Source of the DNA: Pythium myriotylum | Taxonomy: Eukaryota; Oomycota; Peronosporomycetes; Pythiales; Pythiaceae | DNA length: 64,000 nt | Assembly: GCA_023091665.1 (NCBI GenBank) | Contig: JALJCQ010000004.1 | Coordinates: forward strand, 372,001 to 436,000 | Direction of reading: 5' to 3' | Shown: positions 14,835 to 47,584 of the stretch, piece by piece | How the letters are laid out: each line of letters opens with the position of its first letter | Position numbering within the stretch: position 1 is the stretch's first letter | Program-made: the position numbers and the translations under genes | Notes under the pieces: model-generated | What the model was told of the DNA's origin: nothing | The model's input: the letters and a program-made list of their open reading frames with translations, nothing else | The model's database searches: none

Positions 14835-14956
14835 ACTACCAATTCGCTAGAAGCAGATCCATAGACAAGAATATATTTGTGCCTTTGTATTATTGGATAC
14901 CCTCAGAAAAAACGGCTCGGGATGCAAGTGAGACGGTGACGTTTTCATCAAGTGGC

Positions 14957-25545: not shown

Positions 25546-25665
25546 GAAGTACCTGCCGTCGTCGCCCTGGGTCTGGCGGCGGTCGCCGGTCCACTCACTG
25601 GCCACTCTCGAGCTGGCTCGTGTTGCCAGACCAACGACTCGATCTGTCGTTCCTCAACCCAGCCT
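25546..25665 (-). pseudogene. ABC transporter 3'-end fossil behind copy A
   Basis: The plus strand (AAGTACCTGCCGTCGTCGCC onward) matches base by base the start of the ABC gene's 3' coding end at 47780-47900. Translated on the minus strand it is an out-of-frame version of the ABC C-terminus (SQLESGQWTGDRRQTQGDDG). About 120 bp survive, in the same convergent position relative to copy A as the intact ABC gene has to copy F. Confidence 0.75.
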
Positions 25666-26549: not shown

Positions 26550-27368
26550 ATGAAGCCCAAGTCGCACTGCAAGTCCCAGCAGCGCACCAAGTCCACGCAC
26601 GAGTCACGTTCTCTCTTCTGCGCCGAAACCGTCCTCGTCCTCGTCGACGTTGTCGCGCAAATGTTGGCGATTGCACTCATGCCCAAGTCCTACTTTGTGC
26701 CGGTGCCTGACGTTGCCACGCCAACGGAGGAACGCTTCTTCGCTGTGATGGACGTCGCCGTCTACACGCGCTACGTCTCCTCGGGCGCCATGCTCGTCTA
26801 CCTCGTCACGCTGGTCCTTCGGCTCCATGGCCTGCGCCCGGTTGCTCTCCGCTCCCGTTCCGACAGAGCAGACATCTTCGTCCTCCTCCTGCTGCTCGCC
26901 GGACTCACGGCGCGGTGGTACCCGGAGTACGAGGTCACGTCCGACATCAAGCAGTATGAGTTCGCCATCTCGCTCGGCTACCCCTGTTTACTTGCACTGC
27001 ATTTCATCCTCCGACCCAGCGCGGGTATGTTGTCCAACAGACTACGCAAAATCCACGCCAACCGCAATGGCGACCACATCCAGATCTCGATCGAGTTGTC
27101 AGATGCGTCGTTTGAGCGCAAACCCTCGACCGCACCGACCGCTTTCATTGCTCCTGCCTCACAACACGCCAATATCCTGTTTGGCGACGTGCAGCTCTAC
27201 ACGGCGGAGGACATCCCGGAAGCCGCCAAAGTGATCATACAGCAAGATAAACACACAGCGCTCAAGCCACCCAAGCACTTCGATCAGGAGGAGATCTACG
27301 AGCAAGTGCTGATCACGGGTGAGCTTCTTGCGGAGTTCTGGGCCATTGAGACGAAGAAGCTTGAGCGA

Positions 27369-27382
27369 CAGCTGTGCGCACT
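27369..27382 (+). repeat. target-site duplication, left
   Basis: CAGCTGTGCGCACT, identical to 29707-29720; one copy is present in the empty site of copy E at about 41310-41323. Confidence 0.9.
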
Positions 27383-29706
27383 TCTGGTGTTACGGCCTAC
27401 GCCACCTTTGTGGATGCCGAGAAAGCATTTGATCGGGTGAACTGGGACTACATGTGGAAGGTGCTGCTGGCCATGGGATTTGGAGAGACTTTTATCATGT
27501 GGTGTCAGCTTCTCTATACCGACACACGAGTTCGGCTCAACATCAATGGTTGGCTGCAAGATAGTATCCACCCGTGCCGTGGAGTGAAGCAAGGCGATCC
27601 CGTATCGGCGCTGCTGTTTGTTCTCACGATGGAACCGCTCGCGAATCTTCTGAGGCAGCACCCCCAGTACGGTTATCATCCGGCTAGGTTCCCTTCCCCA
27701 GTCACGGGCTCCTACTTTGCCGACGATACTACACTTGTGAGCTGCTCGACTACTGCTGTGGAAAAGCAACTTGAACTCGTGCAAGTTTATTGTGCTGGAT
27801 CTGGAGCCAAGCTCAACGTGGCCAAGACCAACGTCATGAACTTCAACCGGCACGCACTGCATATCCCGCATCCCACACTCTGCATCCTCGACCCAAGCGC
27901 CTCCTGTCGGTACCTAGGACTCCCTATCGGACAGGCCATCCACCACGACCATCGCGTCAGTGCGATAAACGCTCGCTTTTTCGAAAAATTCGCGCGTTGG
28001 AAATGGCGTGCCCGGACGTTACGTGGCCGGCGTCTACTCGCCCAAGCAGTGGTCTTGTCTCAGCTCTGGTACGCCACGGCCGTGACATTCGTACCCAACG
28101 CGATCATTCGTGCGTGGCAACGAGCGATTGACATGTTCGTACTGAGATCGGCTACTGGAGAGACCTCAGGCAGGCGCCCAATCGATGCGCGGTGGCTCTA
28201 TCATCGCGACGCTGACCACACACTTTGCCTTCCTCATGTGCACACGATCGTGAAACGTCAACGCCTCAAGCTCCTCATCCAGATCGTTGAGGATAGCGAA
28301 TCTACGCGCTCTTTTACATGGTCCACGCTGTCACGCCACTATCTCGACACCATGTGTGGTGAGTTTGGCCGCCCTGGTCGCCACGACTACCTCTGGGTCA
28401 ACCCGAACAGCAAGCTCGCGAGGCAGGCTCTCATCGTTTTGCCAGTGTGGCACCGCGCCATTATCCGTACATGATATGGAATGAAGCTCGAGATCGACAC
28501 CAGCAACCTATCTACAGTCGACGAATCGCGCATGCACTTGGAAGCTCCACTCTGGATGAACCGGTTCCCGCAATGGCAGGTCCAACACAATGGACGGCCG
28601 CACAGCTTGCTTCCGGCGCCAAGTGACCGCCGATTCATCTTTATGCGCCAAGTCATGTGCTTCTCCAAGATATGGTGTCTGTCTGATGTCTACTCTGCAT
28701 CTGGATGGCCGTCCCAGGATGTATTTCTTCAACGTGTGATGGTAGACTTTGCCAACGCCGGGGAAGCGCCCCCACGTCTGTCCATGGTCGCCAAACTGTA
28801 TTGTCAACTCTCCGAGGTCAACGCACGTCTCCCTCTCGGCAGTAATCGCGATCGAATCGACACTGCTGTGACCTGGCCATGGATTATCCGTACCTCGACG
28901 TCCGTGAAGCGTTTCCCTGCCTTTCCGCCGAAGCTGGTTTACAAAGCAGCTCTGCCACAGTCGACATCAGCGAGCCCACACCCGCTCCTCCGTCACGAGC
29001 TCACCGACGCCGCCCAGCTTCAACATGTTCTGCACCACACTACGCGACTACGACGCTACGTTTCTCCTGTACAGTATGACGTTCGCTTTCGAGTCTGGTG
29101 GTTTATTCTACCAGCCGCTGACAAGTACGGTACTGCACTTTATCGTCACGATCGTTATTGCCAACACGGCTGTCGGCACGCTGAGACCTACAAGCACATC
29201 TTTTTTGACTGTCGAGTGGCAAGACCCCTATGGCGAGTCCACATAAACGCGTGGAAGCCCATTTTGCTAGGTACCCCACGATGGAAAGAGGCCCTTTTCG
29301 GTGACAAACTCTCGCTGCGTCGTCCGTTCCGCCCGTCGCTCCGCGCTGCCACCGTACTATGGAACATCGTGTGCTCCGTAGTATTCCACACTCTATGGGC
29401 AGTCCGCAACGACAAAAAACACCGATCCATTGATGCACCTCCTACCTCCGTATTGATCGAGCGCGATATTCGCCTGGTCGTCGACCATATCAAAGCGATC
29501 CAACGCACTGCAAGAAACCCCGAGGAAGATCAAGATATCTGAGCTCCCAGCTCACCGCCTTAGCGTCGACTCTCAAACTGTCTCTTACTTAACCATGGGG
29601 TCTGTGTGTTCTTCGCGCGCTGCATAGCATATGTAAACTAGATGTATCGTAGTGTGTTAGAGTAGCAGATCGAGAAGTCCTCACAAATGGAAATCAGTTG
29701 AACCCC
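27383..29706 (+). mobile_element. 5'-truncated L1-type non-LTR retrotransposon
   Basis: 2324 bp, bounded by a perfect 14-bp TSD (27369-27382 and 29707-29720). It begins inside the reverse transcriptase, as expected for 5' truncation. Visible RT blocks are AYATFVDAEKAFDRVNW, GVKQGDPVSALLF and the catalytic SYFADDTTLVS. A single in-frame TGA at 28472-28474 interrupts the frame, which then continues to 29542. The C-terminal part has a zinc-knuckle (CQHGCRHAETYKHIFFDC, CCHC) typical of the RT-associated region. No RNase H domain, no endonuclease part and no poly(A) tail are present. Same orientation as the host gene. Confidence 0.9.
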
Positions 29707-29720
29707 CAGCTGTGCGCACT
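29707..29720 (+). repeat. target-site duplication, right
   Basis: CAGCTGTGCGCACT, identical to 27369-27382. Copy B coding sequence resumes here. Confidence 0.9.
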
Positions 29721-30939
29721 CAATAAAACGTCCAAGGCGGTCTCGAATGAGCTCAACAAGCTCAACACACAGCGCGTCGAGCTCGAGGCAGACCGTGGCA
29801 AGCTGATGGAAGAGGAGGAGCACTACTCTGCGATGATCGAGCAGCTCAAGATGCAGGAGAGCTTCAAGGTCCCCAACCCAGAGTTCATAAGGGCCAACGC
29901 ACTCGCCAAGCACCGCGCCGAGCTCAAGAGAGACATCAGCAAGATGACTTTGGGTAAGAGGCAACTGCTGGAAGAGCAAGTGATACTGCGAACCACGCTT
30001 GACGAGCTGGAGAGCGAGCTTTCCAGATTCGACGAGAACGAGGAGGACGACAAGACCAATGACGACAAAATCTTCTTGCGTGTTGATCCGAACGCGTCTT
30101 CTGCTGAGCAGCTTGCAGTGATTCGTAAGAAGATGCGGCTTATGGACAACGAGCTCGTCGAGGAGCAGCGCAAGAAAGCCTTTGTAGAGAGAGAGATGGA
30201 GGTCCTCAGCAGCCATTTGGCCGAGCTCTCCGGATCCTCCTCGTCATCATCATCGCCATTACCAAGCTCTTTCTTGCCACCAGCTTCATCTTTTGAGTCC
30301 TTGTCGTCGCCAAGGCAGCAGAGTGACATGATGAAGACGCTCGCAGGCTTTCTCGACAAAGGCCCGACCAAGTGGAATGGCCACGCCCAGGGCTTCACCT
30401 CCTGGACCATGCGTGGCACGCACAAGTGTTGGTGCGAGATCGGTTCGGATGGCCGATTGAGGTTTCACAAGCGCGCCGGAGACACGGAAGTGTTGGGCGA
30501 GATCGACCTCGCCGACGCGAGTTTTGAGATCAAATGCGACGATGGCAAAGAGTTCGTGCTCTGCACGTCAGACCAGCAGACGCGCTTCTTCACCAAGAAC
30601 ACCGAGGAGCTCCATATCTGGGTGCGGGCTTTGCTAGCTGCAAACTTGTATCTGCAAACCAAGAGAGATCTCGATGCCATCGCCGACGAGCTGGATGCGG
30701 CCGAGAGACGCCAAGAACTCTGATAGTTGCCCATGGGTACACCGCATTTGATGTGGAGTGTACGTTGATATGGAATACAATTGGGATGGAACGATAAGAT
30801 AAATGCAAAAGTGACGTAGCTGTTATCGCCGGGATGACATGGCAATAATGACATGGTATAGAGAACAACAGCGGCTGAAAGGGAGGGCAAAAGGAAAAGG
30901 TGGCTTGCTAGGCGAACCGCTACGTAATCTACTCGTCTA

Positions 30940-31250
30940 CAACACAAGTACTTGCCATCATCACCCTCGGTCTGGCAGCGGTCGCCAGTCCACTGGCCGC
31001 TCTCAAGCTGGCTTGTGTTGGCAGATCGGTGGCTTGCTCTGTCGTCGCTCGGCTTGCGCACTTGGCTCGAGGCGCGGTTGTATGGGTACCACGACACACC
31101 GCCTGCGGTACTTGCCGTGCTGAGGAACTTGGCGAACTGCTGCACTTGATGAGAAGAGACTTCCGCGAAGAAGCAGCTCACGGTCTGCTGAGTGACTTCT
31201 CGTGTGGAGTCTTGGTCTGAGACGGACCGCAGACGATCCAGCTGAAGCGC
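30940..31250 (-). pseudogene. ABC transporter 3'-end fossil behind copy B
   Basis: Minus-strand translation gives YNRASSQVRKPSDD and TSQLESGQWTGDRCQTEGDD, matching the intact ABC C-terminus at 47772-47930 (YNRASSRVRKPSDD, TSQLESGQWTGDRRQTQGDD). Remnants extend up to about LAKFLSTAS, with loss of frame beyond. The whole 3' flank from 30724 is almost identical to the flank of copy C (35405 onward). Confidence 0.8.
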
Positions 31251-31338
31251 TCCGAGAGCTCGTCTTTGGCAAGCGCGGAGTCGCTTCTCAATGAATGTCG
31301 GGAGTGGTTGGAGATGGCGGCGTCTACGATGCGTCTAC

Positions 31339-31475
31339 GATGCAGACAAGAAGCGCTGAGCCGTCAAAGAAGAGCTTGCGCGAACACAGGATATTCTCCA
31401 TACGCTCAAGGCTGCAGCTGCCGACGACCGAGCAGACAGCCACCTAAGGTCGTATCTGCCCAAGAATCACAAGCG
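31339..31475 (+). pseudogene. orphan fragment of the PH-gene middle segment
   Basis: GATGCAGACAAGAAGCGCTG onward matches the segment of copy A at 24670-24850 that encodes DADKKRRAVKEELARAQDAL. A TGA replaces AGA early, and about 40 bases are deleted before the part that matches QPPKVVSPQESQA. This is the long-form segment absent from copies B, C, E and F, so it is a leftover of yet another duplication unit. Confidence 0.7.
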
Positions 31476-31699
31476 TTTCGCCCAGAGGAAGGTTTGTTTT
31501 ACCACTTGTAATGGTTACCGAGGGAAAACACCCATTGATGAGGTATCGTCTGTTGTTCGACATTGGTATCTCATCCGCGTGTCATTCATCGGCTAAAAAA
31601 AAAAACGAGATAGGCAGGCTTCGCACGTGTCGTCATGCTCGAGAATCACACGTTGCCATGGACGCAAGGATGGTGGGGGAGTAAAGCAGAACAGAGAGC

Positions 31700-32278
31700 A
31701 CGAGCTGTCAAGAACGATGATGATGATGATGATGATGATGCAGGTGGAGTCTATTGAGTTCAACTAATTGTGAATCCTAATAGCTGGGAGCTTAGCGGGT
31801 ATCGACCTAGAGGGGGTCAACGGGGAGGCCTGTTATTGGCCACCACGGACGTAGGTCGTTGGCTAGCAGGGCGGGAAGATCAGTATGACCTTCGCGGTTC
31901 GTAGGGTGGTTGACTTGGGCACTGTGTCGTGAGTCCATGGCCAGGTTAGCCATTGCATCAGCCATCCGGTTATGTGCACGAGCTTGATGGATCCACCTCT
32001 GGATGCCAAGGCGATCTGCAAGCTGACGTGCGCGGTTATAGCTGACCAGAAGTTTTGAGTTGCGCGGTGGTCTGTGTTCTCGCATCTGACGCAAAACGAG
32101 GGCACTGTCACCGATTACTTGGAGAGAGGAAAAACCAAGCGAATGAGCCTTGCGGAGCCCAACAAGCAGGCCTTGATATTCAGCTTGATTGTTTATCATT
32201 CGTGGTGACGCGAGACTGGTCGCAGCACTCCAGATGATCTCTGCCGCGCTTGAGTGGGGATACGAGCTGTCAAGAACG
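31700..32278 (-). mobile_element. 5'-truncated RNase H LINE insertion with 17-bp TSD
   Basis: ACGAGCTGTCAAGAACG occurs at 31700-31716 and 32262-32278 and brackets a 545-bp minus-strand insert (31717-32261). The insert encodes an RNase H domain that lacks only the first hairpin: NNQAEYQGLLVGLRKAHSLG (catalytic Glu), LQVIGDSALVLRQM (Asp), ARAHNRMADAMANLAMDS (His/Asp), ending NDLRPWWP. The 3' tail has AGCTATTAGGATTCACA and TGAACTCAATAGACTCCACC and ends in a (CAT)n microsatellite on the minus strand, seen as (GAT)n at 31717-31740. The ORF extending to 32580 beyond the TSD is target DNA and not part of the element. Confidence 0.88.
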
Positions 32279-33553
32279 CGTGCTCTACGACGTTTCGACA
32301 AAGTGTTCAGCAGAATAAGAAATCGCGCGCTCGCGGTTCCCACGAAGGATGCGAGCTTGTTAACCGCCTGTTTTTGCCTCAAGTCGCCTCCATACGCAGA
32401 ACCATGCCAGCCCACCCTGGGCTGGAGACCGAATGTTCGATTTTCGAAAATCCCCTCCCCCGCCTCGATGGGTGGCAAGAGCTTCTTTGGGTGGGTTCCT
32501 CCGTGGGGGATTGCTCCTCGCTTGCAAGGTTGTCGGAATTGCGTTAAAACCCACGATCGCCACGCTGAGACCGCCGGCACATCTCAGGCCAGAACCCACG
32601 TCTTGACTCGAACCTGCGATGTCTGGCCGAGTCAATTGGTTCAGATCGCCGTGCGCGGCTGTTCGAGAGTATCTTGGCGTCCGCAGGTCGGAGCGCAGCG
32701 TGGATGTGGTTACAAAAAACTGCGGACACCAGCCCACGGGCGTTCACCTATTGCAGATCCATCTCATTTGTGACAGAGAAAGGCGAAAGGCGGGGGGATA
32801 CGTACATGTATCCCCCCGCCTCTCGCCTTCTTCTGTATGCAGAGGTGGCTTTCATGAAGCAGTAGTGACGGAGGAAAAGAGTGGAAAAGCGGTCGATACT
32901 GTGCTTGTGAGCCGAAATGGTTTGAAGTTCCTGATTTGTCATTCTTTTTTCTATTTTGACTGCTTTTGTCAAAATCGTGTGCAAGATGAGTTCAGATCCA
33001 CGACGCGACGAGAGGCGCACGTCATGGCCCATGCAGCAGCAGAATCAGGTGGTCGCAAGTGAGCATTCTCCCGGACGCCCAGGAGCCCGTGGACAAGGAC
33101 GAGCTCTTTAACTCGAAGAAAGACTATCTCAAGGAGGAGGCACTCGGGCAGATCAGGCCAACCCTTTGGCCTGGCTTTGCTCGACCCTGGAATCCAGGGT
33201 CGTGCGGAGGGGAGAAGACGTCTTCCCCGAGAGGGTTCAGGGAAATACCTGTGTAAGTTTATGTACATTAGTTGATAAAGTGCCAGCTTGTGCCACAGAT
33301 AAGAACACTTGAGTTCATTAGGTTCGAATCGTGAGTAATTCGCGCACTTAGCGCAATTACCACGAACTCCGATACCTGAGCATGAGCGAAGGGTCGCGCC
33401 GCTGAACCAAGGTGAAGAACCATCGGAAAAGGCGTCGCCTGGTCACCGGTGATCGTGTCGAGGCTTCCCACGACCAACTGAGGAGACAGTCAGCATGTGA
33501 CGACGCTTGGTGTCAAACAGCCATTGTGGAATTTGCCTCGCCAGTGAACAGCT
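32279..33553. other. intergenic region upstream of copy C
   Basis: No supported gene. It includes a strong hairpin at 32778-32831 and a stretch at 33000-33250 with an open frame but no domain. The last 30 bases before copy C carry a diverged version of the shared leader (TTTGCCTCGCCAGTGAACAG). Confidence 0.45.
32778..32831. repeat. perfect-core hairpin
   Basis: A 14-bp perfect stem, AGGCGGGGGGATAC (32788-32801) and GTATCCCCCCGCCT (32808-32821), with loop GTACAT. The stem extends outward to about 24 bp per arm with a few mismatches. Confidence 0.75.
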
Positions 33554-35404
33554 ATGGAGCCCAAGTCGCAGCGCACCAAGTCCGCGTACGAGTCACAGTC
33601 TCTTTTCCGAAACATCGACGCTAGCAAGTTGCACCACTTCGAAACCATCGTCGTCCTCGTCGACGTCGGCGCGCAACTGTTGGCGGTTGTGCTCATGCCC
33701 AAGTCCTACTTTGTGCCCGTGCCCGACGGCGCCACGCCAACGGAAGACCGCGTATTCGATGACATGGATGCCGCCGTCTACACGCGCTACGTCTCCTCGG
33801 GCGCCATGCTCGTCTACCTCCTCGTGCTTGTGCTTCGGCTCCGTGGCCTGCGCTCGGCTGCTTTCCGCTCGCGCTCCGTCAGAGCCGACGTCTTCGTCCT
33901 CCTCCTGCTGCTTGCCGGACTCGCGGCGCGGTGGTGCCCACAGCACATGGTCGCGACCGACATCAAGTTGTACGAGTTCGTCATCTCGCTCGGCTACCTC
34001 TGTCTACTCGCACTGCACTTCATCCTCCGACCCAGCGCGGGTACGTTGTCCAGGAGACTACACAAGATCCACGCCAACCGCAACGACGACCACATCCAGA
34101 TCTCGATCGAATCGTCAGATGCGTCGTTCGAGCGCAACCCCTCGACAACACCGACCGCTTTCACTGTCCCTGCCTCACGATACGCCAATACCCTGTTTGG
34201 TGACGTGCAGCTCTACGCGGCCGAGGACATCCCGGAAGCCGCCAAAGTGATCGTGCAGCGAGATGAACGCTCGGCACCCAAACTGCCCAAGCACTTCGAC
34301 CGGGAGGAGACTTACGAGCAAGTGCTGATCACGGGTGAGCTTCGTGCGGAGCTCTGGAACATCGAGACGATGAAGCTCAACCGAAAGTTGCGCGTACTCA
34401 ATAAAAAGACCAAGATAGTCTCGAATGAGCTCGACAAGCTCAACACACAGCGCGTCGAGCTCGAGGCAGACTGCGGCAAGCTGATGGAAGAGGAGAAGCA
34501 CTACTCGGCGATGACCAAGCAGCTGGAGCTGCCGGAAACGTACGATATGGTGATCCCAGAGTTCGTCAAGACTAATGAGCTTGTTGAGCACCACGCCAAA
34601 CTCACGGAAGAAATCACCATTCTGGACCGAGGCAACGAGCGGCTACTGAACGAGAAAGCGAGGATGCAGGCTACACTCGACGAGCTGGAGAGTGAGCTCT
34701 CCATGTTCGACGAGAACGAGGAACAGGACAAGACCAATGACGACAAAATCTTCTTCGGTATCGATCCGAACGCGTCTGCCGCTGAGCAGCTTGCGGTTAT
34801 CCGTGAGAACATGCGGCTTATGGACGACGATCTCATGAAGGAGGAGCGTGAGATAGCCCGTGTGGAGAAAGAAATCGGGCTGCTCAACAGCCATTTGGCC
34901 GAGCTCTCCGGATCCTCCTCCTCCTCATCATCATCGTCATTGTCTGGCCCTTCCGTGCCACCACCTCCATCGTTTGTGTCCTTGTCATCGCCAAGGCAGC
35001 AGAGCGACAAGATGAAGACGCTCGCAGGCTTTCTCGACAAAGGCCCGACCAAGTGGAATGGCCAGGCTCAGGGCTTCACCTCCTGGACCATGCGTGGCAC
35101 GCACAAGTGTTGGTGCGAGATCGGTTCGGATGGCCGATTGAGGTTTCACAAGCGCGCCGGTGATAGAAAAGTGTTGGGCGAGATCGACCTCGCCGACGCG
35201 AGTTTTGAGATCAAATGCGACGATGGCAAAGAGTTCGTGCTCAGCACGTCAGACCAGCAGACGCGCTTCTTCACCAAGAACACCGAGGAGCTCCATATCT
35301 GGGTGCGGGCTTTGCTAGCTGCAAACTTGTATCTGCAAACCAAGAGAGATCTCGATGCCATCGCCGACGAGCTGGATGCGGCCGAGAGACGCCAAGAACT
35401 CTGA
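33554..35404 (+). CDS. membrane-module/coiled-coil/PH chimera, copy C
   Basis: 616 aa, single exon, ATG at 33554 (MEPKSQRTKS). Residues ~30-165 hold about four hydrophobic helices, including FVPVPDGATPTEDR between the first two and IFVLLLL-type segments. This stretch matches residues ~60-190 of the ABC protein at 57906-60911. A linker ending LFGDVQLYAAEDIPEA leads into a coiled coil (~265-440) matching copy A from its FADVDQGTAEDNPEA onward. Then come poly-Ser and a PH domain (~487-600; TLAGFLDKGPTKWNG, CWCEIGSDGRLRFHKR, LHIWVRALLAAN). The WW and PDZ parts of copy A are absent. Predicted membrane-anchored, lipid-binding coiled-coil protein. The long segment before the PH domain of A and D is missing. 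Confidence 0.82.
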   Translation: MEPKSQRTKSAYESQSLFRNIDASKLHHFETIVVLVDVGAQLLAVVLMPKSYFVPVPDGATPTEDRVFDDMDAAVYTRYVSSGAMLVYLLVLVLRLRGLRSAAFRSRSVRADVFVLLLLLAGLAARWCPQHMVATDIKLYEFVISLGYLCLLALHFILRPSAGTLSRRLHKIHANRNDDHIQISIESSDASFERNPSTTPTAFTVPASRYANTLFGDVQLYAAEDIPEAAKVIVQRDERSAPKLPKHFDREETYEQVLITGELRAELWNIETMKLNRKLRVLNKKTKIVSNELDKLNTQRVELEADCGKLMEEEKHYSAMTKQLELPETYDMVIPEFVKTNELVEHHAKLTEEITILDRGNERLLNEKARMQATLDELESELSMFDENEEQDKTNDDKIFFGIDPNASAAEQLAVIRENMRLMDDDLMKEEREIARVEKEIGLLNSHLAELSGSSSSSSSSSLSGPSVPPPPSFVSLSSPRQQSDKMKTLAGFLDKGPTKWNGQAQGFTSWTMRGTHKCWCEIGSDGRLRFHKRAGDRKVLGEIDLADASFEIKCDDGKEFVLSTSDQQTRFFTKNTEELHIWVRALLAANLYLQTKRDLDAIADELDAAERRQEL

Positions 35405-35620
35405 TAGTTGCCCATGGGTACACCGCATTTGATGTGGAGTGTACGTTGATATGGAATACAGTTGGGATGGAACGATAAGATAAATGCAAAAGTGACGTAG
35501 CTGTTATCGCCGGGATGACATGGCAATAATGACATGGTATAGAGAACAACAGCGGCTGAAAGGGAGGGCAAAAGGAAAAGGTGGCTTGCTAGGCGAACCG
35601 CTACGTAATCTACTCGTCTA

Positions 35621-35935
35621 CAACACAAGTACTTGCCATCATCACCCTCGGTCTGGCAGCGGTCGCCAGTCCACTGGCCGCTCTCAAGCTGGCTTGTGTT
35701 GGCAGATCGGCGGCTTGCTCTGTCGTCGCTCGGCTTGCGCACTTGGCTCGAGGCGCGGTTGTATGGGTACCACGACGCACCGCCTCCAGTACGCGCCCAC
35801 TCGGCCTCGTTGACCACACGCGTGGTGAGCGACTTGGTGAACTGCTGTGCTGTATCTCCGAGAAGAGGCCGCCGTGGCAGAACAGCTCACGGTCTGCTCA
35901 GTGACTCTTCGCGTGGAGTCTTGGTCTTGAGACGA
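35621..35935 (-). pseudogene. ABC transporter 3'-end fossil behind copy C
   Basis: Minus-strand translation includes VVNEAEWARTGGGASWYPY, NRASSQVRKPSDDRASRRS and SQLESGQWTGDRCQTEGDD, matching the intact ABC C-terminus. Similarity continues at the DNA level through the segment encoding the KSLSTRVVNEAE region, then breaks down. This is the longest ABC fossil in the array. Confidence 0.85.
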
Positions 35936-37092: not shown

Positions 37093-39312
37093 ATGAAGCC
37101 CAAGTCGCAGTGCAAGCCCCAGCAGCGCACCAAATCCGCGTACGAGCCACGGTCTCTTTTCCGGAACTTCGACACCAGTACGCTTCAACGCATCCTCATC
37201 GTCATCGACCTTGGCGCGCAAGCGTTCGTGGTCGTGCTCATGCCCAAGTCCTACTTTGTGCCCGTGCCCGACGGCGTGGCGCCAACGGAAGACCGCTTCT
37301 TCGCCGACATGGATGCTGCCGTCTACGCGCGCTACGCCTCCTCGGGCGCCATGCTTGTCTACCTCCTCGCGCTTGTGCCTCGGCTCCGTGGCCTGCGCTC
37401 GGTTGCTCTCCGCTCGCGCTCCGACAGAGCCGACATCTTCGTCCTCCTCCTGCTGCTTGTCGGACTCGCGGCGCGGTGGTGCCCACAGCACATGGTCGCG
37501 ACCGACATCAAGTTGTACGAGCTCGAGATCTCGCTCGGCTACCTCTGTCTGCTCGCGCTGCACTTCATCCTCCGACCCAGCGCGGGTATGTTGTCCAAGA
37601 GACTACACAAGATGCGCATCAACAGCAGTGACGGCCAAATCCAGATCTCGATCGAGTCATCAGATGCGTCGTTTGAGCGCAAACCCTCGACAGCACCGAT
37701 CGCTTTCACTGCTCCTGCCTCACAGCACGCCAACACCCTGTTTGGTAACGTGCAGCTCTACACGGCCGAAGATATCCCAGAAGCTGTCAAGCTGATCGTG
37801 CAGCAGGATAAACACATAGCGCTCGAGCCACCCAAGCACTTCGATCAGGAGGAGACTTACGAGCAAGTGCTGATCACGGGTGAGCTTCGTGCGGAGCTCT
37901 GGAACATCGAGACGATGAAGCTCAACCGAAAGTTGCGCGTACTCAATAAAAAGGCCAAGATAGTCTCGAACGAGCTTGACAAGCTCAACACACAGCGCGT
38001 CGAGCTTGAGACAGACTGCGGCAAGCTGATCGAAGAGGAGAAGCACTACTCGGGGATGATCGAGCAGCTCAAGTTGCAGGAGAGCTTCGAGATCCCCAAC
38101 CCAGAGTTCATTAAGGCCAACGCACTCGCCAAGCACTGTACCGAGCTCGAAAAAGACATCAGCATGCTGGACCGAGGCAACGAGCGGTTACTGAAGGAGA
38201 AAGCAATGCTGCAGGCCACGCTTGACGAGCTCGAGAGCGGGCTCTGCAGGTTCGACGAGGACGAGGAGGACGACATGATCAATGACGACAAAATCTTCTT
38301 CGGTATTGATCCGAACGCGTCTCCTGCAGAGCAGCTTGCAGTTATCCGTAAGAAGGTGCGGCTTATGGACAACGAGCTCATGAAGGAGCAGCGCAAGACA
38401 GTCCGTGTGGAGAAAGAAATGGAGCAGCTTAACAGCCATCTGACTCGGCTCTCCGGGTCATCATCATCATCGTGGTGGCGTGTAAGTGACACGCGAGACC
38501 GAGGCAACACCATCCTTCACACTGAAATGTCAGATGATTACCTGACCGACATCGCTCTCCTCGAGTTGCGTATCCTCGATCTCAAGAAGAAGAAGCGCGC
38601 GTACGTGTTAACTATCACCGAAGCCAGTCAGTGCGGTGACAAAGAGAGCGCATGCAATGCAGACAAGAAGCGCAGAGCTGTCAAAGAAGAGCTTGCGCAA
38701 GCACAGGATGCTCTCCATACGCTCAAGGTCGCAGCTGCCGACGACCGAGGCGAGCCGGCGCCACGATCATCACTCGAAGAGGCAGCACCAGGCAAAGAGC
38801 CGTTTAAGGTCGGATGTTTACTGAAATCGCAAGCATCGCAGCAGCAAGAAGACAAGATGCCGACCCTCACGGGCTTCCTCGACAAGGGCCCGACCGAGTG
38901 GAGTGGCAAGGGTCTCATCCGCAAGGCTAAGACGATGCGTGGCGCGCGTGAACGTTGGTGCGAGATCTGCCCCGATGGTCGTCTGAGGTACTACAAGCGC
39001 CGTGGCGACACTGAGGTCCGTGGTGAGATCGACCTGAACGACGCCAGTTTCGAGGTCACGTGCCACGACCTGAAGCGCGGCAACGAGTTCGTGCTGTGTA
39101 CGTCAGACCAGCAGTCGCACTTCTTCACGAAGAGCTCCGAGGAGCTCCAGATCTGGGTGCGCACTCTGCGTGCTGCCAACTCGTACTTGCGAACGAACAA
39201 GCATCTGGACGCCATCGCCGGCAAGCTGGACGCGGCCGAGCGACGACACGGCGGGCGAGGAGCACCCGAGGACGACGAGCAGTTTTACGGTCGCGCGACA
39301 CTGGGTTTCTAG
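37093..39312 (+). CDS. membrane-module/coiled-coil/PH chimera, long form, copy D
   Basis: 739 aa, single exon, ATG at 37093. The N-terminal ~230 residues are the membrane module (FVVVLMPKSYFVPVPDG, AMLVYLLALVPRLRGL, IFVLLLLLVGLAARW, ISLGYLCLLALHFIL). The coiled coil follows. Unlike B, C, E and F it keeps the Lys-rich middle segment of copy A (ELRILDLKKKKRAYVLTITE) and an A-type PH domain (~589-695) ending GAPEDDEQFYGRATLGF. From about 38850 to 39480, including the 3' UTR, the DNA is almost identical to copy A, whereas the coiled coil is clearly diverged. That indicates a recent gene-conversion tract or a cross-over. It links the non-chimeric A to the chimeras. Confidence 0.82.
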   Translation: MKPKSQCKPQQRTKSAYEPRSLFRNFDTSTLQRILIVIDLGAQAFVVVLMPKSYFVPVPDGVAPTEDRFFADMDAAVYARYASSGAMLVYLLALVPRLRGLRSVALRSRSDRADIFVLLLLLVGLAARWCPQHMVATDIKLYELEISLGYLCLLALHFILRPSAGMLSKRLHKMRINSSDGQIQISIESSDASFERKPSTAPIAFTAPASQHANTLFGNVQLYTAEDIPEAVKLIVQQDKHIALEPPKHFDQEETYEQVLITGELRAELWNIETMKLNRKLRVLNKKAKIVSNELDKLNTQRVELETDCGKLIEEEKHYSGMIEQLKLQESFEIPNPEFIKANALAKHCTELEKDISMLDRGNERLLKEKAMLQATLDELESGLCRFDEDEEDDMINDDKIFFGIDPNASPAEQLAVIRKKVRLMDNELMKEQRKTVRVEKEMEQLNSHLTRLSGSSSSSWWRVSDTRDRGNTILHTEMSDDYLTDIALLELRILDLKKKKRAYVLTITEASQCGDKESACNADKKRRAVKEELAQAQDALHTLKVAAADDRGEPAPRSSLEEAAPGKEPFKVGCLLKSQASQQQEDKMPTLTGFLDKGPTEWSGKGLIRKAKTMRGARERWCEICPDGRLRYYKRRGDTEVRGEIDLNDASFEVTCHDLKRGNEFVLCTSDQQSHFFTKSSEELQIWVRTLRAANSYLRTNKHLDAIAGKLDAAERRHGGRGAPEDDEQFYGRATLGF

Positions 39313-40463: not shown

Positions 40464-42326
40464 ATGAAGCCCAAGTCGCCGGGCAAGCCCCAGCAGCGCA
40501 CCAAGTCCGCATACGAGCCACGGTCTCTTTTCCGAAACATCAACGCCAGTACACTTCAACGCACCGAAACCATCCTCATCCTCATCGACGTCGGGGCGCA
40601 AGCGTTCGTGGTCGTGCTCATGCCCAAGTCCTACTTTGTGCCAGTGCCCGACGACACTACGCCAACGGAAGAGCGCTTCTTCGCCGACATGGACGCCGCC
40701 GTCTACGCGCGCTACGTCTCCTCAGGCGCCATGCTCGTCTACCTCCTCGCGCTTGTGCCTCGGCTCCATAGCCTGCGCTCAGCTGCTCTCCGCTCACGCT
40801 CCGACAGAGCCGACATCTTCGTCCTCCTCCTGCTGCTCGCCGGACTCACGGCGCGGTGGTACCCGGAGTACGAGGTCACGTCCGACATCAAGCAGTATGA
40901 GTTCGTCATCTCGCTCGGCTACCTCTGTCTGCTGGCGCTGCACTTCATCCTCAAGCCCGACGCGCGTACGTTGTCCAAGAGACTACGCAAGATCCACGCC
41001 AACAGCAGCGACGACCACATCCAGATCTCGATCGAGTCGTCAGATGGGTCGTTTGAGCGCAAACCCTCGACCGCACCGACCGCTTTCACTGCTCCTGCCT
41101 CACGACACGCCAATACCCTGTTTGGCGACGTGCAGCTCTACACGGCCGAGGACATCCCGGAAGCCGCCAAAGTGATCGTGCAGCAAGATAAACACACAGC
41201 GCTCAAGCCACCCAAGCACCTTGACCAGGAGGAGATCTACGAGCAAGTGCTGATCACGGGTGAGCTTCGTGGGGAGCTCTGGGCCATCGAGACGAAGAAG
41301 CTTGAGCGACAGCTGTGCGCACTCAATAAAACGTCCAAGGCGGTCTCGAATGAGCTCGACAAGCTCAACACACAGCGCGTCGAGCTCGAGGCAGACCGTG
41401 GCAAGCTGATCGAAGAGGAGAAGCACTACTCGGGGATGATCGAGCAGCTCAAGATGCAGGAGAGCTTCAAGGTCCCCAACCCAGAGTTCATAAGGGCCAA
41501 CGCACTCGCCAAGCACCGCGCCGAGCTCAAGAGAGACATCAGCAAGATGACTTTGGGTAAGAGGCAACTGCTGGAAGAGCAAGTGATACTGCGAACCACG
41601 CTTGACGAGCTGGAGAGCGAGCTTTCCAGATTCGACGAGAACGAGGAGGACGACAAGACCAATGACGACAAAATCTTCTTGCGTGTTGATCCGAACGCGT
41701 CTCCTGCTGAGCAGCTTGCAGTGGTTCGTAAGAAGATGCGGCTTATGGACAACGAGCTCGTCGAGGAGCAGCGCAAGAAAGCCTTTGTAGAGAGAGAGAT
41801 GGAGGTCCTCAGCAGCCATTTGGCCGAGCTCTCCGGATCCTCCTCGTCATCATCATCGCCATTACCAAGCTCTTTCTTGCCACCAGCTTCATCTTTTGAG
41901 TCCTTGTCGTCGCCAAGGCAGCAGAGTGACATGATGAAGACGCTCGCAGGCTTTCTCGACAAAGGCCCGACCAAGTGGAATGGCCAGGCTCAGGGCTTCA
42001 CCTCCTGGACCATGCGTGGCACGCACAAGTGTTGGTGCGAGATCGGTTCGGATGGCCGATTGAGGTTTCACAAGCGCGCCGGAGACACGGAAGTGTTGGG
42101 CGAGATCGACCTTGCCGACGCGAGTTTTGAGATCAAATGCGACGATGACAAAGAGTTCGTGCTCTGCACGTCAGACCAGCAGACGCGCTTCTTCACGAAA
42201 AACACCGGGGAGCTCCATATCTGGGTGCGGGCTTTGCTGGCTGCAAACTTGTATCTGCAAACCAAGAAAGATCTGGACGTCATCGCTGACGAGCTGGATG
42301 CGGCCGAGAGACGCCAACAACTCTGA
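40464..42326 (+). CDS. membrane-module/coiled-coil/PH chimera, copy E
   Basis: 620 aa, single exon, ATG at 40464. Same order as copy C: leader MKPKSPGKPQQRTKS, four hydrophobic helices (residues ~35-165), linker, coiled coil, poly-Ser/Pro linker, PH domain (~491-600). It carries the uninterrupted site ERQLCALNKTSK that is split by the LINE in copy B, and its coiled coil is nearly identical to that of B. Both have FEKDE-free variants such as MTLGKRQLLEEQ. The best intact representative of the B/E subtype. Confidence 0.82.
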   Translation: MKPKSPGKPQQRTKSAYEPRSLFRNINASTLQRTETILILIDVGAQAFVVVLMPKSYFVPVPDDTTPTEERFFADMDAAVYARYVSSGAMLVYLLALVPRLHSLRSAALRSRSDRADIFVLLLLLAGLTARWYPEYEVTSDIKQYEFVISLGYLCLLALHFILKPDARTLSKRLRKIHANSSDDHIQISIESSDGSFERKPSTAPTAFTAPASRHANTLFGDVQLYTAEDIPEAAKVIVQQDKHTALKPPKHLDQEEIYEQVLITGELRGELWAIETKKLERQLCALNKTSKAVSNELDKLNTQRVELEADRGKLIEEEKHYSGMIEQLKMQESFKVPNPEFIRANALAKHRAELKRDISKMTLGKRQLLEEQVILRTTLDELESELSRFDENEEDDKTNDDKIFLRVDPNASPAEQLAVVRKKMRLMDNELVEEQRKKAFVEREMEVLSSHLAELSGSSSSSSSPLPSSFLPPASSFESLSSPRQQSDMMKTLAGFLDKGPTKWNGQAQGFTSWTMRGTHKCWCEIGSDGRLRFHKRAGDTEVLGEIDLADASFEIKCDDDKEFVLCTSDQQTRFFTKNTGELHIWVRALLAANLYLQTKKDLDVIADELDAAERRQQL

Positions 42327-42535
42327 TTGATGGTGGCGATAAGCTAGATAGTATGGGATGCGGAGATATGGAATGCAGTTGGCATGGAACGATATGAATA
42401 AATGCAAAAGTGACGTGGCCATTTTCGTCGGGATGACATGGCAATGATGACATGGTACAGAGAACAACAGTGGCTGGAAGGCGGGGTAAAGGACAAGGTG
42501 GCTTGCTAGGCGAATCGCTACGTAATCTACTCGTC

Positions 42536-42650
42536 GACAACACAAGTACTTGCCGTCGTCGCCCTGGGTCTGGCGGCGGTCGCCAGCCCACTGACCGCTC
42601 TCGAGCTGGCTCGTGTTGCCAGACCGGCGATTTGACCGGTCGTCGCTCGG
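42536..42650 (-). pseudogene. ABC transporter 3'-end fossil behind copy E
   Basis: CAACACAAGTACTTGCCGTC and the following ~100 bp match the ABC gene's 3' coding end (47780-47900), including the stretch encoding SQLESGQWTGDRRQTQGDD. The frame is disturbed near the end. Confidence 0.75.
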
Positions 42651-43439
42651 CTTGGACTCGAGAAACGTTTGGTAGCTACAGGATCAGTTTGTATGACGGG
42701 GGAGCTTCACGACGACTACGATGATGATTGCGACGATCGAGACCAGCACCACGGGTTGCTTGCAGAGAGTCCCGAGCGACTGCCCTCAAGCCGAGGCCAA
42801 CGCGTCGTGGACCCATCACATGAGTGGTGAACGAGCTCGAGTCGGTGCGTACTGAAGGCCGTGAGACGTGGTGCCGCTAGAATCGTGCCTCGAGCCCCGA
42901 CGATCTAGAGGCGACGACGATGAGGACAAGGCCGTAGTGGGGGTGGGACGCGTGTTAGTGTCAGGGCATTGACTCGTCGTGGGCGGTCGACGCACAAGAA
43001 AATTCATGAGAACACTCAAAGTGAGATCATCCCTCCCCGAAGCTTCCAACTCATTCTTGATCGAGAAGGTGTGGTAAAAGTAGGGTGGTCCCGATAAACT
43101 GAACACAAGAGGAGGAGAGAGGTGCCTACGTGTGAGCAGGAGGTTGTCATTCTCATTAACAACGCACCTGGTTTTGTGAAGCACCCGGGACAACTGTATC
43201 TGGTCCTCGGTGGGCCTGGGTCTGGAGGGCAAGTCGCCAGCAAGCACACCCGGTGGACACTTGACATGACACAAAGAAACTACCCTCAGAGGAGGCTTGA
43301 TATTGAATCGAGCAGCCTGCGTTGAACTTGTCTTTACCGTGGGTCAACTGGCCGGATACCCTGGGTTGCAAATCCGAGAACGCAAGTCGCAGCAGGTCTG
43401 CATTGGCAGATCCTAGTAATATGATGATAATCTTGACTG
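42651..43439. other. decayed intergenic DNA
   Basis: The part to 42990 resembles the flank behind copy A (25690-25990), with a short piece of ABC sequence in plus orientation (GTGGTGAACGAGCTCGAG). No gene supported. Confidence 0.45.
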
Positions 43440-43840
43440 GATTAGCCTGGTTTGTCGGTGTGTTCGCTATGGCGCTGTGAGCGCGTCGATGGGGGCACCA
43501 TTTGCGGACTCCGAAGATGTCGGCAAGTCGTCTGGCTCTGTGGTAGAGCCTGTGAAGTGTATCATTGAGAGGTCGGTATATGCGCATCTGACGAAGGATG
43601 AATGCTATGACAATGAGGTCATGCCATCCGTTCTCCGTCGCTACTCGGCACCCATCAATCAGCCCTCGGTACTCTGCTTGGGTGTTGGTAGTCGTAGAAG
43701 CAGCCAGCCAGGTGACGGGGCTTCAGAGCACTGCCGGGGTGGAGTCCTCAGCCGTTGAGGTGACTATGAGAGCACCTGCTCTCCCTGATCCAGGTCCAGT
43801 GTTGCCACGTAAACCTCCGCCAACAAAGAGCGCGCGTGTT
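43440..43840 (-). pseudogene. retroelement RNase H fossil 5
   Basis: Minus-strand pieces in order: ALFVGGGLRGNTGPGSGRAG, TNTQAEYRGLMGAE, FILRQMRIYRP, LYHRARRLADIFGVRKW and HRRAHSAIANT. They cover the RNase H domain from its first hairpin to the His region but in several frames with stops. First catalytic Asp replaced by Val. Confidence 0.7.
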
Positions 43841-44284
43841 GGCGCCGTGAGAGGGGCTATGTGGTGGTTCGTCTCCTCGGTCGTGCCGAGGAAGTTTCGA
43901 CGATGATACTCGTTGCGTAAGCAAGGGTGTCCGGGTCTCGTTACAGTCGGTGCTTCAGCGTGTCGAGCACGCGTTGGTAGCTGATCTTATGCACTGCCGA
44001 CGCCTGCTGGCTGGACCAGGCTCGCGGGGCGTTGTTCACGTCGGTTCTCCAAGCAATGAGCACTACAAGCGTCTCCAGCACGAGCTACTGCCAGACCGCT
44101 TGCAGGTCTGGGAACGGTCCAGCTCCTGTGTCTTCGTCGTCTAGAAGACACTTGCGGAGGGGAGGTAGCTTCCAGTACTTGGGCGGAATTCGCGGTAGGC
44201 GAAGGTTGAAGACTGCAGTGAGGAAGTCGTCGCTTGCTGCCGAAGCCGTCTCTTCCTAGAACCGGCTATACAAGACGCCTCGGA

Positions 44285-44600
44285 GCCCGGGTCTGCGACA
44301 GCTCTACCACAAGACTCGTCGGCTGGCCGACCTAGTGCACGCCTCCAAGTGCGAGCTCGCAACACCATGGCCAACGCGATGGACACTTCCGCGATGGACA
44401 TTCACACCATGAGCCATGTTCGTCATCCTACGGGCATGCCATGCAGACCTGCCCCAGCTCGTCGCCTCCGCTTTGCATCCCTAACTAGGTTGCCAGGTTG
44501 ACCCATGGTAACCCAGGAATGCCCAGGGCTCCAGTTATCAGGATACATTTATTGCGCTCAATAGACTTCCCGTACATCACCATCATCATCACGTTTCTTC
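44285..44600 (+). pseudogene. retroelement RNase H fossil 6 with conserved 3' tail
   Basis: The plus strand reads QLYHKTRRLADLVHASK, then after a frame change RARNTMANAMDTSAMD, matching the C-terminal half of the RNase H domain in 31717-32261. The LINE tail follows (ATCAGGATACATTTATTGCG, then CTCAATAGACTTCCC) and a CAT-rich end at 44577-44591. No TSD could be found. Confidence 0.65.
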
Positions 44601-45080
44601 CCGAGGCAACGGCGGAGCGCAGGATTGTCCGGCGGAGCGCAGGATTGTCCAAAGGGTTTTCGCAGCTGCACATTCCCACACGATGTGGAAGACCCTCCCG
44701 CCATCTGAGCCGGCCTCGGTGCAATGGGTGCATCCCTGCCTGTCACGTTGGCAGTCCCAACCGGAGAGTTGGAGCCATTTGATTCTGTAGTAGAGCAGGC
44801 ATTCATTACCTAGAAGAGCTATGCTTTAGACGATATGTCTTCTTCCAGCTCACGAAGTCGAGCACTGTGCCGAACACCACTGAAGATCGTAGGCCAGCTC
44901 CCATCGGCACTCGAGTTCCTGCATGGCCCATTCGCGTTTCGTTCGCGCTACAAGTTCGCGCAGAGTGACTTTGCCATGAAGTCGCGGCGTTCCCCAAAGC
45001 GGGAGTACCATGCTGAGCATGGGGTGCGGGGAGAACTTGAGCGATGCGCGCTTCGACACACTGCGTGTTGTGGTCTCCCA
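44600..45080 (-). pseudogene. LINE C-terminal zinc-knuckle fossil
   Basis: Minus-strand translation around 44640-44770 gives CQRDRQGCTHCTEAG, then FHIVWECAAAKTLW. This is the same spacing of Cys/His and the VWECxxAxxLW ending as in the RT-associated region of the LINE at 27383-29706 (IFFDCRVARPLW). The flanking minus-strand frame up to 45080 is shifted and stop-laden. Confidence 0.6.
44611..44650. repeat. 20-bp tandem duplication
   Basis: GGCGGAGCGCAGGATTGTCC is repeated twice in direct tandem within the LINE fossil. A 20-bp gain breaks its reading frame. Confidence 0.9.
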
Positions 45081-45688
45081 CGTGGTGCTGTCACAAAATT
45101 GGAGACGAGCCAGACAAAAGAACTAGTGACCAAAATGGCCGAATCTGTCTTCGTGGGATTGAACTGGTCATGGGAGCATGTCTCGACCGTAAAAGTATGG
45201 CTCACTCCGAGGCTCTGGCTACACTCCTCAAAGGTGTCTGGGAATGCAATGCACAACTTTCGTTGGGATTGGAGAAGCTCCGTAATTGTTTTGTCGCAGT
45301 GTGCCACGCTTCGATCTTTAGTTATTGAGGATACTAGTACACTGTATTACGAAAGCGGGCACGATGTTGAAGTGGACTAGAAACTTTTTGAAGTTCCGCG
45401 TTTTTCATTCTCTTCAATGGATGCGATCGAGACCACCAACGCGATGGCGGGCAGCCACGGGAGAGTACATGAGTACATGTTCCCAAAGAGACAATCTCCA
45501 CAATCCGCATGAAATTCCCGACGTCTCTAGTCTAGGGTACGAAATTCCAGAGGGTGATCGTAACGGTTCTAGTCCAAAGACGTACAGGCCATGACCATCC
45601 CAATGGGACTGCATGCGGAGGCAGCATCAGTATGCGACGTCTCGGCGTCTGACGGGCATTGAGCAATTCGCCTCACGAGTGAGCAGCC
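45081..45688. promoter_or_regulatory. upstream region of copy F
   Basis: No gene supported. The final ~35 bp are the leader shared by the chimeras (CAATTCGCCTCACGAGTGAG then CAGCC before the ATG). A TCATTCTCTTCAATG stretch at about 45405-45419 resembles an oomycete initiator but lies ~280 bp from the ATG. Confidence 0.35.
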
Positions 45689-47584
45689 ATGAAGCCCAAG
45701 TGGCAGTGCAAGTGCCAGCAGTGCACCAACTCTGCGGAAGAACCACAGTCTCTTTTCCGAAACATCGACGCTAGCAAGTTGCACCACGCCGAAACCATCT
45801 TCATCCTCATCGACCTTGGCGCGCAAGCGTTCGTGGTCGTATTCATGCCTAAGTCCTACTTTGTGTCCGTGCCCGACGACACTACGCCAACGGAAGAGCG
45901 CTTCTTCGCCGACATGGACGCCGCCGTCTACGCGCGCTACGTCTCCTCAGGCGCCATGCTCGTCTACCTCCTCGCACTTGTGCTTCGGCTCCATAGCCTG
46001 CGCTCGATTGCTCTCCGCTCCCGTTCCGACAGAGCCGATATCTTCGTCCTCCTTCTGCTGCTCACCGGACTCGCGGCGCGGTGGTACCCGGAGTACGAGG
46101 TCACGTCCGACATCAAGCAGTATGAGTTCGCCATTTCGCTCGGCTACCTCTGTCTGCTGGCGCTGCACTTCATCCTCAAGCCCGGCGCGGGTATGTTGTC
46201 CAAGAGACTACGCAAGATCCACGCCAACCGCAACGGCGACCACATCCAGATCTCGATCGAGTCGTCAGATGGGTCGTTTGAGCGCAAACCCTCGACAGCA
46301 CCGACCGCTTTCACTGCTCCTGCCTCACAACACGCCAATACCCTGTTTGGCGACGTGCAGCTCTACACGGCGGAGGACATCCCGGAAGCCGCCAAAGTGA
46401 TCATGCAGCGAGATGAACGCTCGGTACCCAAACTGCCCGAGCACTTCGACCAGGAGGAGACCTACGAGCAAGTGCTGATCACGGGTGAGCTTCGTGCGGA
46501 GTTCTGGAACATCGAGACGATGAAGCTCAACCGAATGTTGCGCGTACTAAATAAAAAGACCAAGATAGTGTCGAACGAGCTTGACAAGCTCAACACACAG
46601 CGCGTTGAGCTCGAAGCAGACCGTGACAACTTGCTCTTGGAGAAACACCACTATTCGGAGATGATCAAACAACTCGAGCTACCGGAAACGTACGAGATGG
46701 TGATCCCAGAGTTCATCAAGACTAATGAGCTTGTTGAGCACCACGCCAAACTCACGGAAGAAATCACCGTTCTGGACCGAGGCAACGAGCGGCTACTGAA
46801 GGAGAAAGCGAGGCTGCAGGCCACACTCGACGAGCTTGAGAGTAAGCTCTCCAGGTTTGACGAGAACGCGGAGGACGACAAGACCACTGACGACAGGATC
46901 TTCTTCCGTGTTGATCCGAACGCGTCTCCTGCTGAACAGCTTGCGCTTATTCGTAAGAAGCTGCAGCTTATGGATGACGATCTCATCAAGGAGGAGCACG
47001 AGATAGTCCGAGTGGAGAAAGAAATCGGGCACCTCAACAGCCATTTGGCCGATCTCTCCGGATCATCATCATCATCATCATCATTACCATCATCATCATC
47101 GCCATCATCAAGCTCTTTCTTGCCACCGCCTTCATCTTTTGTGTCCTTTTCGTCGCCAAGGCGGCCGAGAGGCCAGATCAAGACACTCGCAGGCTTTCTC
47201 GACAAAGGCCCGACCAAGTGGAATGGCCACGCCCAGGGTTTCACGTCCTGGGTCTGGCGTGTTGCGCACAAGCGTTGGTGTGAGATCGGTTCGGATGGCC
47301 GACTGAGGTTTCACAAGCGCCCCGGTGATAGAAAAGTGTTGGGCGAGATCGACCTCGCCGACGCGAGTTTCGAGATCAAATGCGAGAATGGCAAAGAGTT
47401 TGTGCTCTGCACGTCAGAGCAGCAAACGCGCTTCTTCACCAAGAACACCGAGGAGCTCCATACGTGGATACGGACTTTGCTAGATGCAAATTTGTTTCTC
47501 CAAACCGAGAAAGATCTGGATGCTATCGCCGACGAGCTGGATGCGGCCGAGAGATGCCGAGTCTTTGATGGTATCCTTGGCTAG
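45689..47584 (+). CDS. membrane-module/coiled-coil/PH chimera, copy F
   Basis: 631 aa, single exon, ATG at 45689. Leader MKPKWQCKCQQCTNSAEEPQ, four hydrophobic helices (~35-165, including FVVVFMPKSYFVSVPD and IFVLLLLLTGLAARW), linker HANTLFGDVQLYTAEDIPEA, coiled coil, an expanded Ser/Pro run, PH domain (~497-605; RWCEIGSDGRLRFHKRPG, LHTWIRTLLDAN). The tail differs from other copies (CRVFDGILG). Last gene of the array; its stop lies 187 bp from the stop of the intact convergent ABC gene, preserving the presumed ancestral arrangement. Confidence 0.82.
   Translation: MKPKWQCKCQQCTNSAEEPQSLFRNIDASKLHHAETIFILIDLGAQAFVVVFMPKSYFVSVPDDTTPTEERFFADMDAAVYARYVSSGAMLVYLLALVLRLHSLRSIALRSRSDRADIFVLLLLLTGLAARWYPEYEVTSDIKQYEFAISLGYLCLLALHFILKPGAGMLSKRLRKIHANRNGDHIQISIESSDGSFERKPSTAPTAFTAPASQHANTLFGDVQLYTAEDIPEAAKVIMQRDERSVPKLPEHFDQEETYEQVLITGELRAEFWNIETMKLNRMLRVLNKKTKIVSNELDKLNTQRVELEADRDNLLLEKHHYSEMIKQLELPETYEMVIPEFIKTNELVEHHAKLTEEITVLDRGNERLLKEKARLQATLDELESKLSRFDENAEDDKTTDDRIFFRVDPNASPAEQLALIRKKLQLMDDDLIKEEHEIVRVEKEIGHLNSHLADLSGSSSSSSSLPSSSSPSSSSFLPPPSSFVSFSSPRRPRGQIKTLAGFLDKGPTKWNGHAQGFTSWVWRVAHKRWCEIGSDGRLRFHKRPGDRKVLGEIDLADASFEIKCENGKEFVLCTSEQQTRFFTKNTEELHTWIRTLLDANLFLQTEKDLDAIADELDAAERCRVFDGILG

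Follow-up and report, generated by a model that had tools for sequence, protein, structure and literature searches.

A tandem array of chimeric genes in Pythium myriotylum joins a membrane module of ABC2-type half-transporters to the coiled coil and PH domain of a neighbouring scaffold gene

The stretch of Pythium myriotylum DNA analysed here (the window, 64,000 nucleotides, G000:C4:372001-436000) contains five related genes, B, C, D, E and F, which sit between gene A, a scaffold gene, and ABC1, a half-transporter gene that lies with a second one, ABC2, on the opposite strand. By their sequences, B-F form a tandem array of chimeric genes, in that both parents are identifiable and the copies stand head to tail beside them. 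The favoured reading, to which a probability of roughly 0.62 is assigned, is that B-F stem from one chimera of an ABC2-lineage membrane module and A, which was multiplied in tandem, undergoes conversion and acts as a set of constitutive membrane adaptors. The origin of the chimeras is well explained by the evidence below, from which we infer their function. The array had been proposed in a sequence-only reading of the window, and tblastn bears it out, with C-F open throughout and both donors inside the window; of the five head-to-tail descendants named there, C, D, E and F are intact, whereas B is split by a retrotransposon and forms no intact chimera. The features of the locus are as follows.

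23052..25352, + strand: gene A, scaffold donor; exon 1 at 23052-~23291 (WW-like), an intron, and exon 2 at ~23376-25352 (PDZ-like, coiled coil, PH)
25540..25716, - strand: remnant of ABC1 C-terminal codons 3' of A (tblastn, 45% over 60 aa, E value 7e-7)
26550..27382, + strand: copy B, 5' part (module, junction, start of the coiled coil)
27382..29707, + strand: fragment of a retrotransposon lacking long terminal repeats (non-LTR) within copy B; reverse transcriptase (RT) open reading frame (ORF) 27374-28474, zf-RVT ORF 28481-29542
29707..30720, + strand: copy B, 3' part (coiled coil, PH)
30948..31157, - strand: ABC1 tail remnant, antisense, 3' of B (tblastn, 69% over 78 aa)
31338..31452, + strand: remnant of an A-like middle segment between B and C, probably another decayed unit
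33554..35404, + strand: copy C, intact chimera, 616 aa
35629..35862, - strand: ABC1 tail remnant, antisense, 3' of C (tblastn, 85% over 81 aa)
37093..39312, + strand: copy D, intact chimera, 739 aa, with a tract identical to A 24910-25437 in its 3' part
40464..42326, + strand: copy E, intact chimera, 620 aa, structure modelled
42546..42653, - strand: ABC1 tail remnant, antisense, 3' of E (94% over 36 aa), with an extra inverted piece at 42818-42895
45689..47584, + strand: copy F, intact chimera, 631 aa, convergent with intact ABC1
47772..50855, - strand: ABC1, complete half-transporter ORF (module, ABC_membrane, ABC_tran)
57906..61115, - strand: ABC2, half-transporter, closest relative of the module of the chimeras (DNA-level match 60202-60728)

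A comparison of the chimeras with the two donors reveals a two-part make-up. In tblastn searches, residues ~130-311 of ABC2 align to the N-terminal part of B-F at 60-64% identity, and gene A aligns to the remainder of C-F at 44-68% identity depending on the piece. The N-terminal match to ABC2 and the continuation of C-F with the coiled coil and PH domain of A thus stand as previously proposed, but the module measures ~185 residues and not 130. At the DNA level, the chimera modules are 78-83% identical to ABC2. The ABC2 match has an E value of 2e-65 when the whole of copy E is the query and of 1e-66 with its first 204 residues, and the module is located at seven places in the genome searched (58.7 Mb, 55 contigs), all within the window: B-F, ABC1 and ABC2. 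Matches of this strength at just seven sites rule out chance similarity. An assembly artefact is judged unlikely, as there are five diverged copies, each with its own flanks.

The ABC homology ends past the ARIP-like (SxxRxP) motif of the chimeras, and the homology to A begins at Ala-Ser-Arg (A nucleotide 23652), close to where the PDZ-like region ends. Between the two lie ~10 residues without a match to either donor, fewer than in the linker of ~20 residues read earlier. In copy C the junction falls at 34160-34172. The first ~20 codons and ~40 upstream bases are common to all five chimeras, and a genome search with 156 bases of E returns the five chimera sites and no other, although the lack of a match is not proof of rarity. 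The match to the oomycete start-site consensus at -35 of B-F is weak (shuffle p 0.04-0.15). The membrane core and the nucleotide-binding domain of ABC transporters (PF00664 and PF00005), which are both present in ABC1 and ABC2, are not found in B-F; in their domain content the chimeras carry an ABC-derived part yet are not ABC transporters. The PH domain of C, E and F scores below the Pfam cut-off, and the structure model of E matches solved PH domains, with the seven-stranded barrel closed by a C-terminal helix. NCBIfam gives no match for A or E. The fusion was found in no other organism by two protein searches, of which the first scored the 7994 candidates sharing most words and the second, with a profile of C-F and A from which the serine run was removed, scored 7995 chosen in the same way; with the remaining candidates unscored, a fusion in another organism may have escaped both.

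Gene A is a predicted scaffold of WW-like, PDZ-like, coiled-coil and PH parts, of which the first two are replaced in the chimeras. The gene does not start at the PDZ-like exon, as had been supposed, since an extra upstream exon encodes a WW-like domain just under the Pfam threshold (PF00397, 23.6 bits against a cut-off of 26.9). No Pfam match to PDZ is obtained in A, and a profile search of solved structures with this region yields 38 chains with a best E value of 0.09; 37 are chains that we take to be PDZ proteins, and one is a haemagglutinin. The region is therefore termed PDZ-like. Elsewhere in the genome, the coiled-coil/PH part has one paralogue (G000:C1:1524506-1527092), which is ~30-31% identical and in separate pieces. 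The C-terminal DEQFYGRATLGF is common to A and its four relatives and is not present in C, E and F.

Separate trees of the two halves, which had been proposed as a check, place each with its suspected donor. In the module tree (55 rows: 48 relatives, ABC1, ABC2 and B-F), the chimeras form one clade (support 100/100) beside ABC2 (100/100) and near ABC1 and P0003, the closest relative of ABC1 (91/90). Approximately unbiased (AU) tests reject the placement of B-F with ABC1 (p-AU 0.002), outside the group of ABC1, ABC2 and P0003 (0.008), and outside all 29 peronosporalean ABC rows (0.005). In the coiled-coil tree (ten rows), B-F again form one clade (100/100), which joins A over P0051, the closest relative of A, and three more relatives with moderate support (85/82).

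The relatives of the module indicate the same source. A 241-residue stretch of ABC2 retrieved 48 proteins, all of which carry ABC_membrane and/or ABC_tran, and those named to organism are all oomycetes, from Aphanomyces and Saprolegnia to Phytophthora and Albugo. In a quick 25-row tree, the ABC proteins of the window have Pythium insidiosum and P. oligandrum as their nearest neighbours (SH-like approximate likelihood ratio test, SH-aLRT, 92 and 87). The module might instead be an old stand-alone family that ABC2 borrowed, and an unattached homologue could have escaped the search, which ran within a length window; however, ABC domains accompany the module in 48 of 48 proteins from Saprolegniales to Peronosporales, and B-F nest beside ABC2, so that borrowing is largely contradicted and its probability is very small. 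Neither the tree nor the relatives contain the older non-ABC membrane family that would have spoken against the ABC origin given in the sequence-only reading, and a separate old membrane family was accordingly rejected as the source. In the ABC family itself (P0003-P0050 and ABC2), a conserved helical segment that looks EF-hand-like by eye lies between the module and the ABC core.

ABC1 and ABC2 are complete half-transporter ORFs with this module as an extra N-terminal membrane part. Its predicted fold resembles voltage-sensor domains, with the four helices S1-S4 and with Ci-VSP chains among the matches, and Ion_trans (PF00520) is matched by 3 of 34 module members. ABC accessory domains do not appear in the fold-match lists, an absence that is no proof of difference. 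Voltage sensing needs an acid in S2 and, in S4, basic residues at regular intervals. The S2 acid is kept in 48 of the 49 other ABC rows (the 49th is a gap), and its loss is common to ABC2, which has T, and B-F, which have T, V or A. The S1 acid is kept as D in all five chimeras, and the regular S4 basic series is gone. With the S2 acid absent and few of the S4 basic residues left, the module of the chimeras probably no longer senses voltage.

The flanks of the copies provide information on how the array arose. Antisense remnants of the ABC1 C-terminus lie 3' of A, B, C and E, that is, in four of the five copies without intact ABC1 downstream; D has the spacer only, and F is followed by ABC1 itself. 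The distance from the stop of A to its ABC1 remnant is 188 bp, and that from the stop of F to the last ABC1 codon is 191 bp. From these remnants and the matching spacing, the units are therefore duplicates of the place where A and ABC1 converge, preceded by an ABC2-type module. P0051 and P0003 both list a contig of 5930 bases, and their coding regions amount to 5070 bases, which leaves at most 860 for all else if they share one such contig; the two may lie on the same contig, in line with a convergent A/ABC1 junction. The reciprocal fusion, with the WW-PDZ part of A joined to an ABC body, as would be left by one simple inversion, was not seen in genome queries with P0051 and the module, the ABC body not being among the queries. 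The ABC2 module may have reached the front of A from the other strand when a duplicated segment was inverted or through a template switch, either of which would suffice. On the favoured reading, the four-helix, voltage-sensor-like module of an ABC half-transporter of the ABC2 lineage would have taken the place of the WW-like and PDZ-like parts in a duplicated A, and the resulting chimera would have multiplied in tandem, with the copies continuing to swap pieces by gene conversion.

Such exchange is visible between several members. D and A are identical over 528 bases (A 24910-25437), without a difference in 137 PH codons, against a synonymous divergence (dS) of 0.73 between their coiled coils. 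B is 96-100% like E from the coiled coil into the PH domain and 99-100% like C beyond, and C is 95% like F in a part where C and E are 63% alike. We read the array members from these sequences as mosaics produced by gene conversion within the array and with A.

The intact copies have several properties of working genes. The gaps in five comparisons (C-E, C-F and E-F over their whole length, D-E and D-C over module and coiled coil, with the D-F pair left out) are multiples of three in 10 of 10 cases, and in the 3' flanks of C, E and F in 4 of 14. The ratio of nonsynonymous to synonymous divergence (dN/dS) is 0.30-0.56 for the coiled coil (six pairs among C-F), 0.21-0.51 for the PH part in the three pairs of C, E and F and 0.25-0.27 in the three pairs with D, and 0.44-0.95 for the module (pairs among C-F). 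Of the 15 region pairs, 12 have a dS above dN at p<0.05 (coiled coil 6/6, PH 3/3, module 3/6), with p values uncorrected, pairs non-independent and the PH pairs with D left out. In a neutral simulation with substitutions only (2000 copies per level), 3.8, 0.45 and 0.2% of copies stay open at 5, 8 and 10% substitutions; C, E and F differ from each other by 12-15%. By gap phase, dN/dS and simulation, the four copies C-F are therefore probably genes, in which the module is probably the least constrained part, and the substitution pattern places at least the coiled coil under purifying selection.

These results also bear on the view that the array is decaying, a relic of a failed fusion whose frames have stayed open through chance or through conversion by A. 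The retrotransposon in copy B, the further remnant at 31338-31452, the weak constraint on the module and the PH part of D, which is a copy of that of A, would all fit such decay. However, the gap phase, the dN/dS values below 1 and the frames of 616-739 codons open in four copies, three of which (C, E, F) are 12-15% apart, argue against it, and gene conversion from A is unable to keep the module open because A has no module; decay of the whole array is thus considered improbable. The insert in B contains an RT domain (PF00078) and has the same 13 bases on both sides, and a 296-aa ORF of B runs into it. The RT has 111 other matches in the genome, of which the long ones are at most 44% identical (nearest 43-44%) and short fragments 55-57%; the non-LTR element appears as an orphan fragment in this genome.

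In exchanging two partner-binding parts (WW-like and PDZ-like) for a membrane anchor, the chimeras would have become membrane proteins with both N- and C-ends in the cytosol. Hydropathy finds all four helices in one copy only, C, and the loops of C obey the positive-inside rule, which places the parts after the module, coiled coil and PH, on the cytosolic side. The anchored chimera would oligomerise through its coiled coil, and the lipid- and partner-dependent recruitment of A would give way to constitutive anchoring; the first candidates for partners of such an adaptor would be those of the coiled coil of A, or A itself. The basic first loop of PH domains, which is not common to all of them, serves phosphoinositides. 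The first 38 PH residues contain nine K+R in A and D, six in F and five in B, C and E, so that the basic loop is kept in A and D and reduced in the others. The term "lipid-binding" used in the sequence-only reading is thus doubtful for B, C, E and F, whereas D retains the loop because this part is identical to A. Constitutive anchoring, with lipid recruitment no longer needed, may explain the decay of the loop in the other four.

Alternatively, the chimeras may regulate ABC half-transporters by co-assembling with ABC1, ABC2 or their partners, to which they would bring coiled-coil oligomers or which they would block. The chimera module is that of ABC2 itself, the chimeras adjoin complete ABC1 and ABC2 ORFs, and the accessory N-terminal domain of ABCB6 is reported to act in targeting (PMC4410673). 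However, residues R146, R152, R154 and F156 around the end of the fourth helix, which are near-invariant in the other ABC rows (46-49 of 49), are changed in the chimeras, as if ABC-specific contacts had been dropped: R146, R152 and F156 in all five, R146 always to H, and R154 in four of five, being kept only in E. We favour constitutive membrane adaptors, with regulation of ABC transporters as the first rival, possible but unlikely.

Among known systems, the Sdic cluster of Drosophila melanogaster, in which a chimera of two adjacent genes has been amplified head to tail with its parents on either side, is alike in formation and differs in proteins and phylum; additionally, the membrane part of the present array comes from an opposite-strand gene, and one copy was recently converted by a parent. 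The evolutionary route itself is known, and the array is a clear and unusually complete example of how a new gene arises, in which the voltage-sensor-like donor domain is unexpected. It is uncommon to find a chimeric gene within a single piece of DNA together with its two parents, its junction and several copies, and here one can follow how a soluble scaffold becomes a membrane protein and which parts decay, namely the PH basic loop and the sensor charges. The array further draws attention to a family of oomycete ABC proteins in which a voltage-sensor-like fold is predicted for the additional N-terminal domain.

The pore-less voltage-sensor proteins Hv1 and Ci-VSP likewise have a cytosolic part after the four-helix fold, a coiled coil in Hv1 and a phosphoinositide enzyme in Ci-VSP, but the chimeras have neither a regular S4 basic series nor the S2 acid. 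Proton channels of the Hv1 type are characterised by the S1 acid and an S4 RxxRxxR motif, of which the chimeras keep only the former (D, 5/5). A further-reaching reading, considered improbable, is that oomycetes have an old family of ABC half-transporters whose N-terminal domain has a voltage-sensor fold, and that this domain, freed in the present lineage and attached to a coiled coil with a PH domain, forms Hv1-like dimers which associate with such transporters and tune them.

The accessory TMD0 domains, such as that of ABCB6, also place extra N-terminal helices before the ABC core (PMC4410673); the oomycete module differs in its predicted voltage-sensor-like fold and in the PF00520 matches. 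GPCR-bigrams, which combine a seven-helix G-protein-coupled receptor domain with a typically catalytic domain and are common to oomycetes, resemble the chimeras in joining a multi-pass membrane module to an intracellular signalling part, combinations in which oomycetes are rich (PMC6033456); the chimeras differ in that an ABC accessory module precedes a coiled coil and PH domain, a combination found only in the window, with four helices in the E model and no catalytic family in C-F. The voltage-sensor/nucleotide-cyclase proteins of Phytophthora parasitica likewise have a pore-less voltage-sensor-like membrane part joined to a cytosolic part, but their sensor is reported to have typical S4 motifs, a cyclase takes the place of the coiled coil and PH domain, and the part of the text available draws no ABC link (PMC12223298). 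Domain fusions particular to oomycetes are also described for Phytophthora sojae, with 273 novel multifunctional proteins whose conservation in P. ramorum is reported, in a survey whose main text, in the version available, contains neither "ABC transporter" nor "pleckstrin" (PMC2705460). The titles and beginnings of abstracts listed yielded nothing on the chimera architecture, and among the papers listed none was found on a voltage-sensor-like domain in ABC transporters, the nearest being that on the voltage-sensor/cyclase proteins. In their predicted domains and key residues, the chimeras are no ABC transporter, no bigram and no working voltage sensor.

Outside the array, an inverted repeat of 574 bp occupies 4457-5030 and 5797-6370 of the window, with arms 99.65% identical and 766 bp apart, and only these two copies were found genome-wide. 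An ORF of 1890 aa at 14831-20503 (+), in which several ion-channel-like repeats can be made out by eye, shares its first four bases with the end of the preceding RRP5-like ORF (8871-14834), and the ORF at 20539-22569 (-) has, by eye, the look of a fusion between a class II aldolase-type dehydratase and an enolase-phosphatase of methionine salvage.
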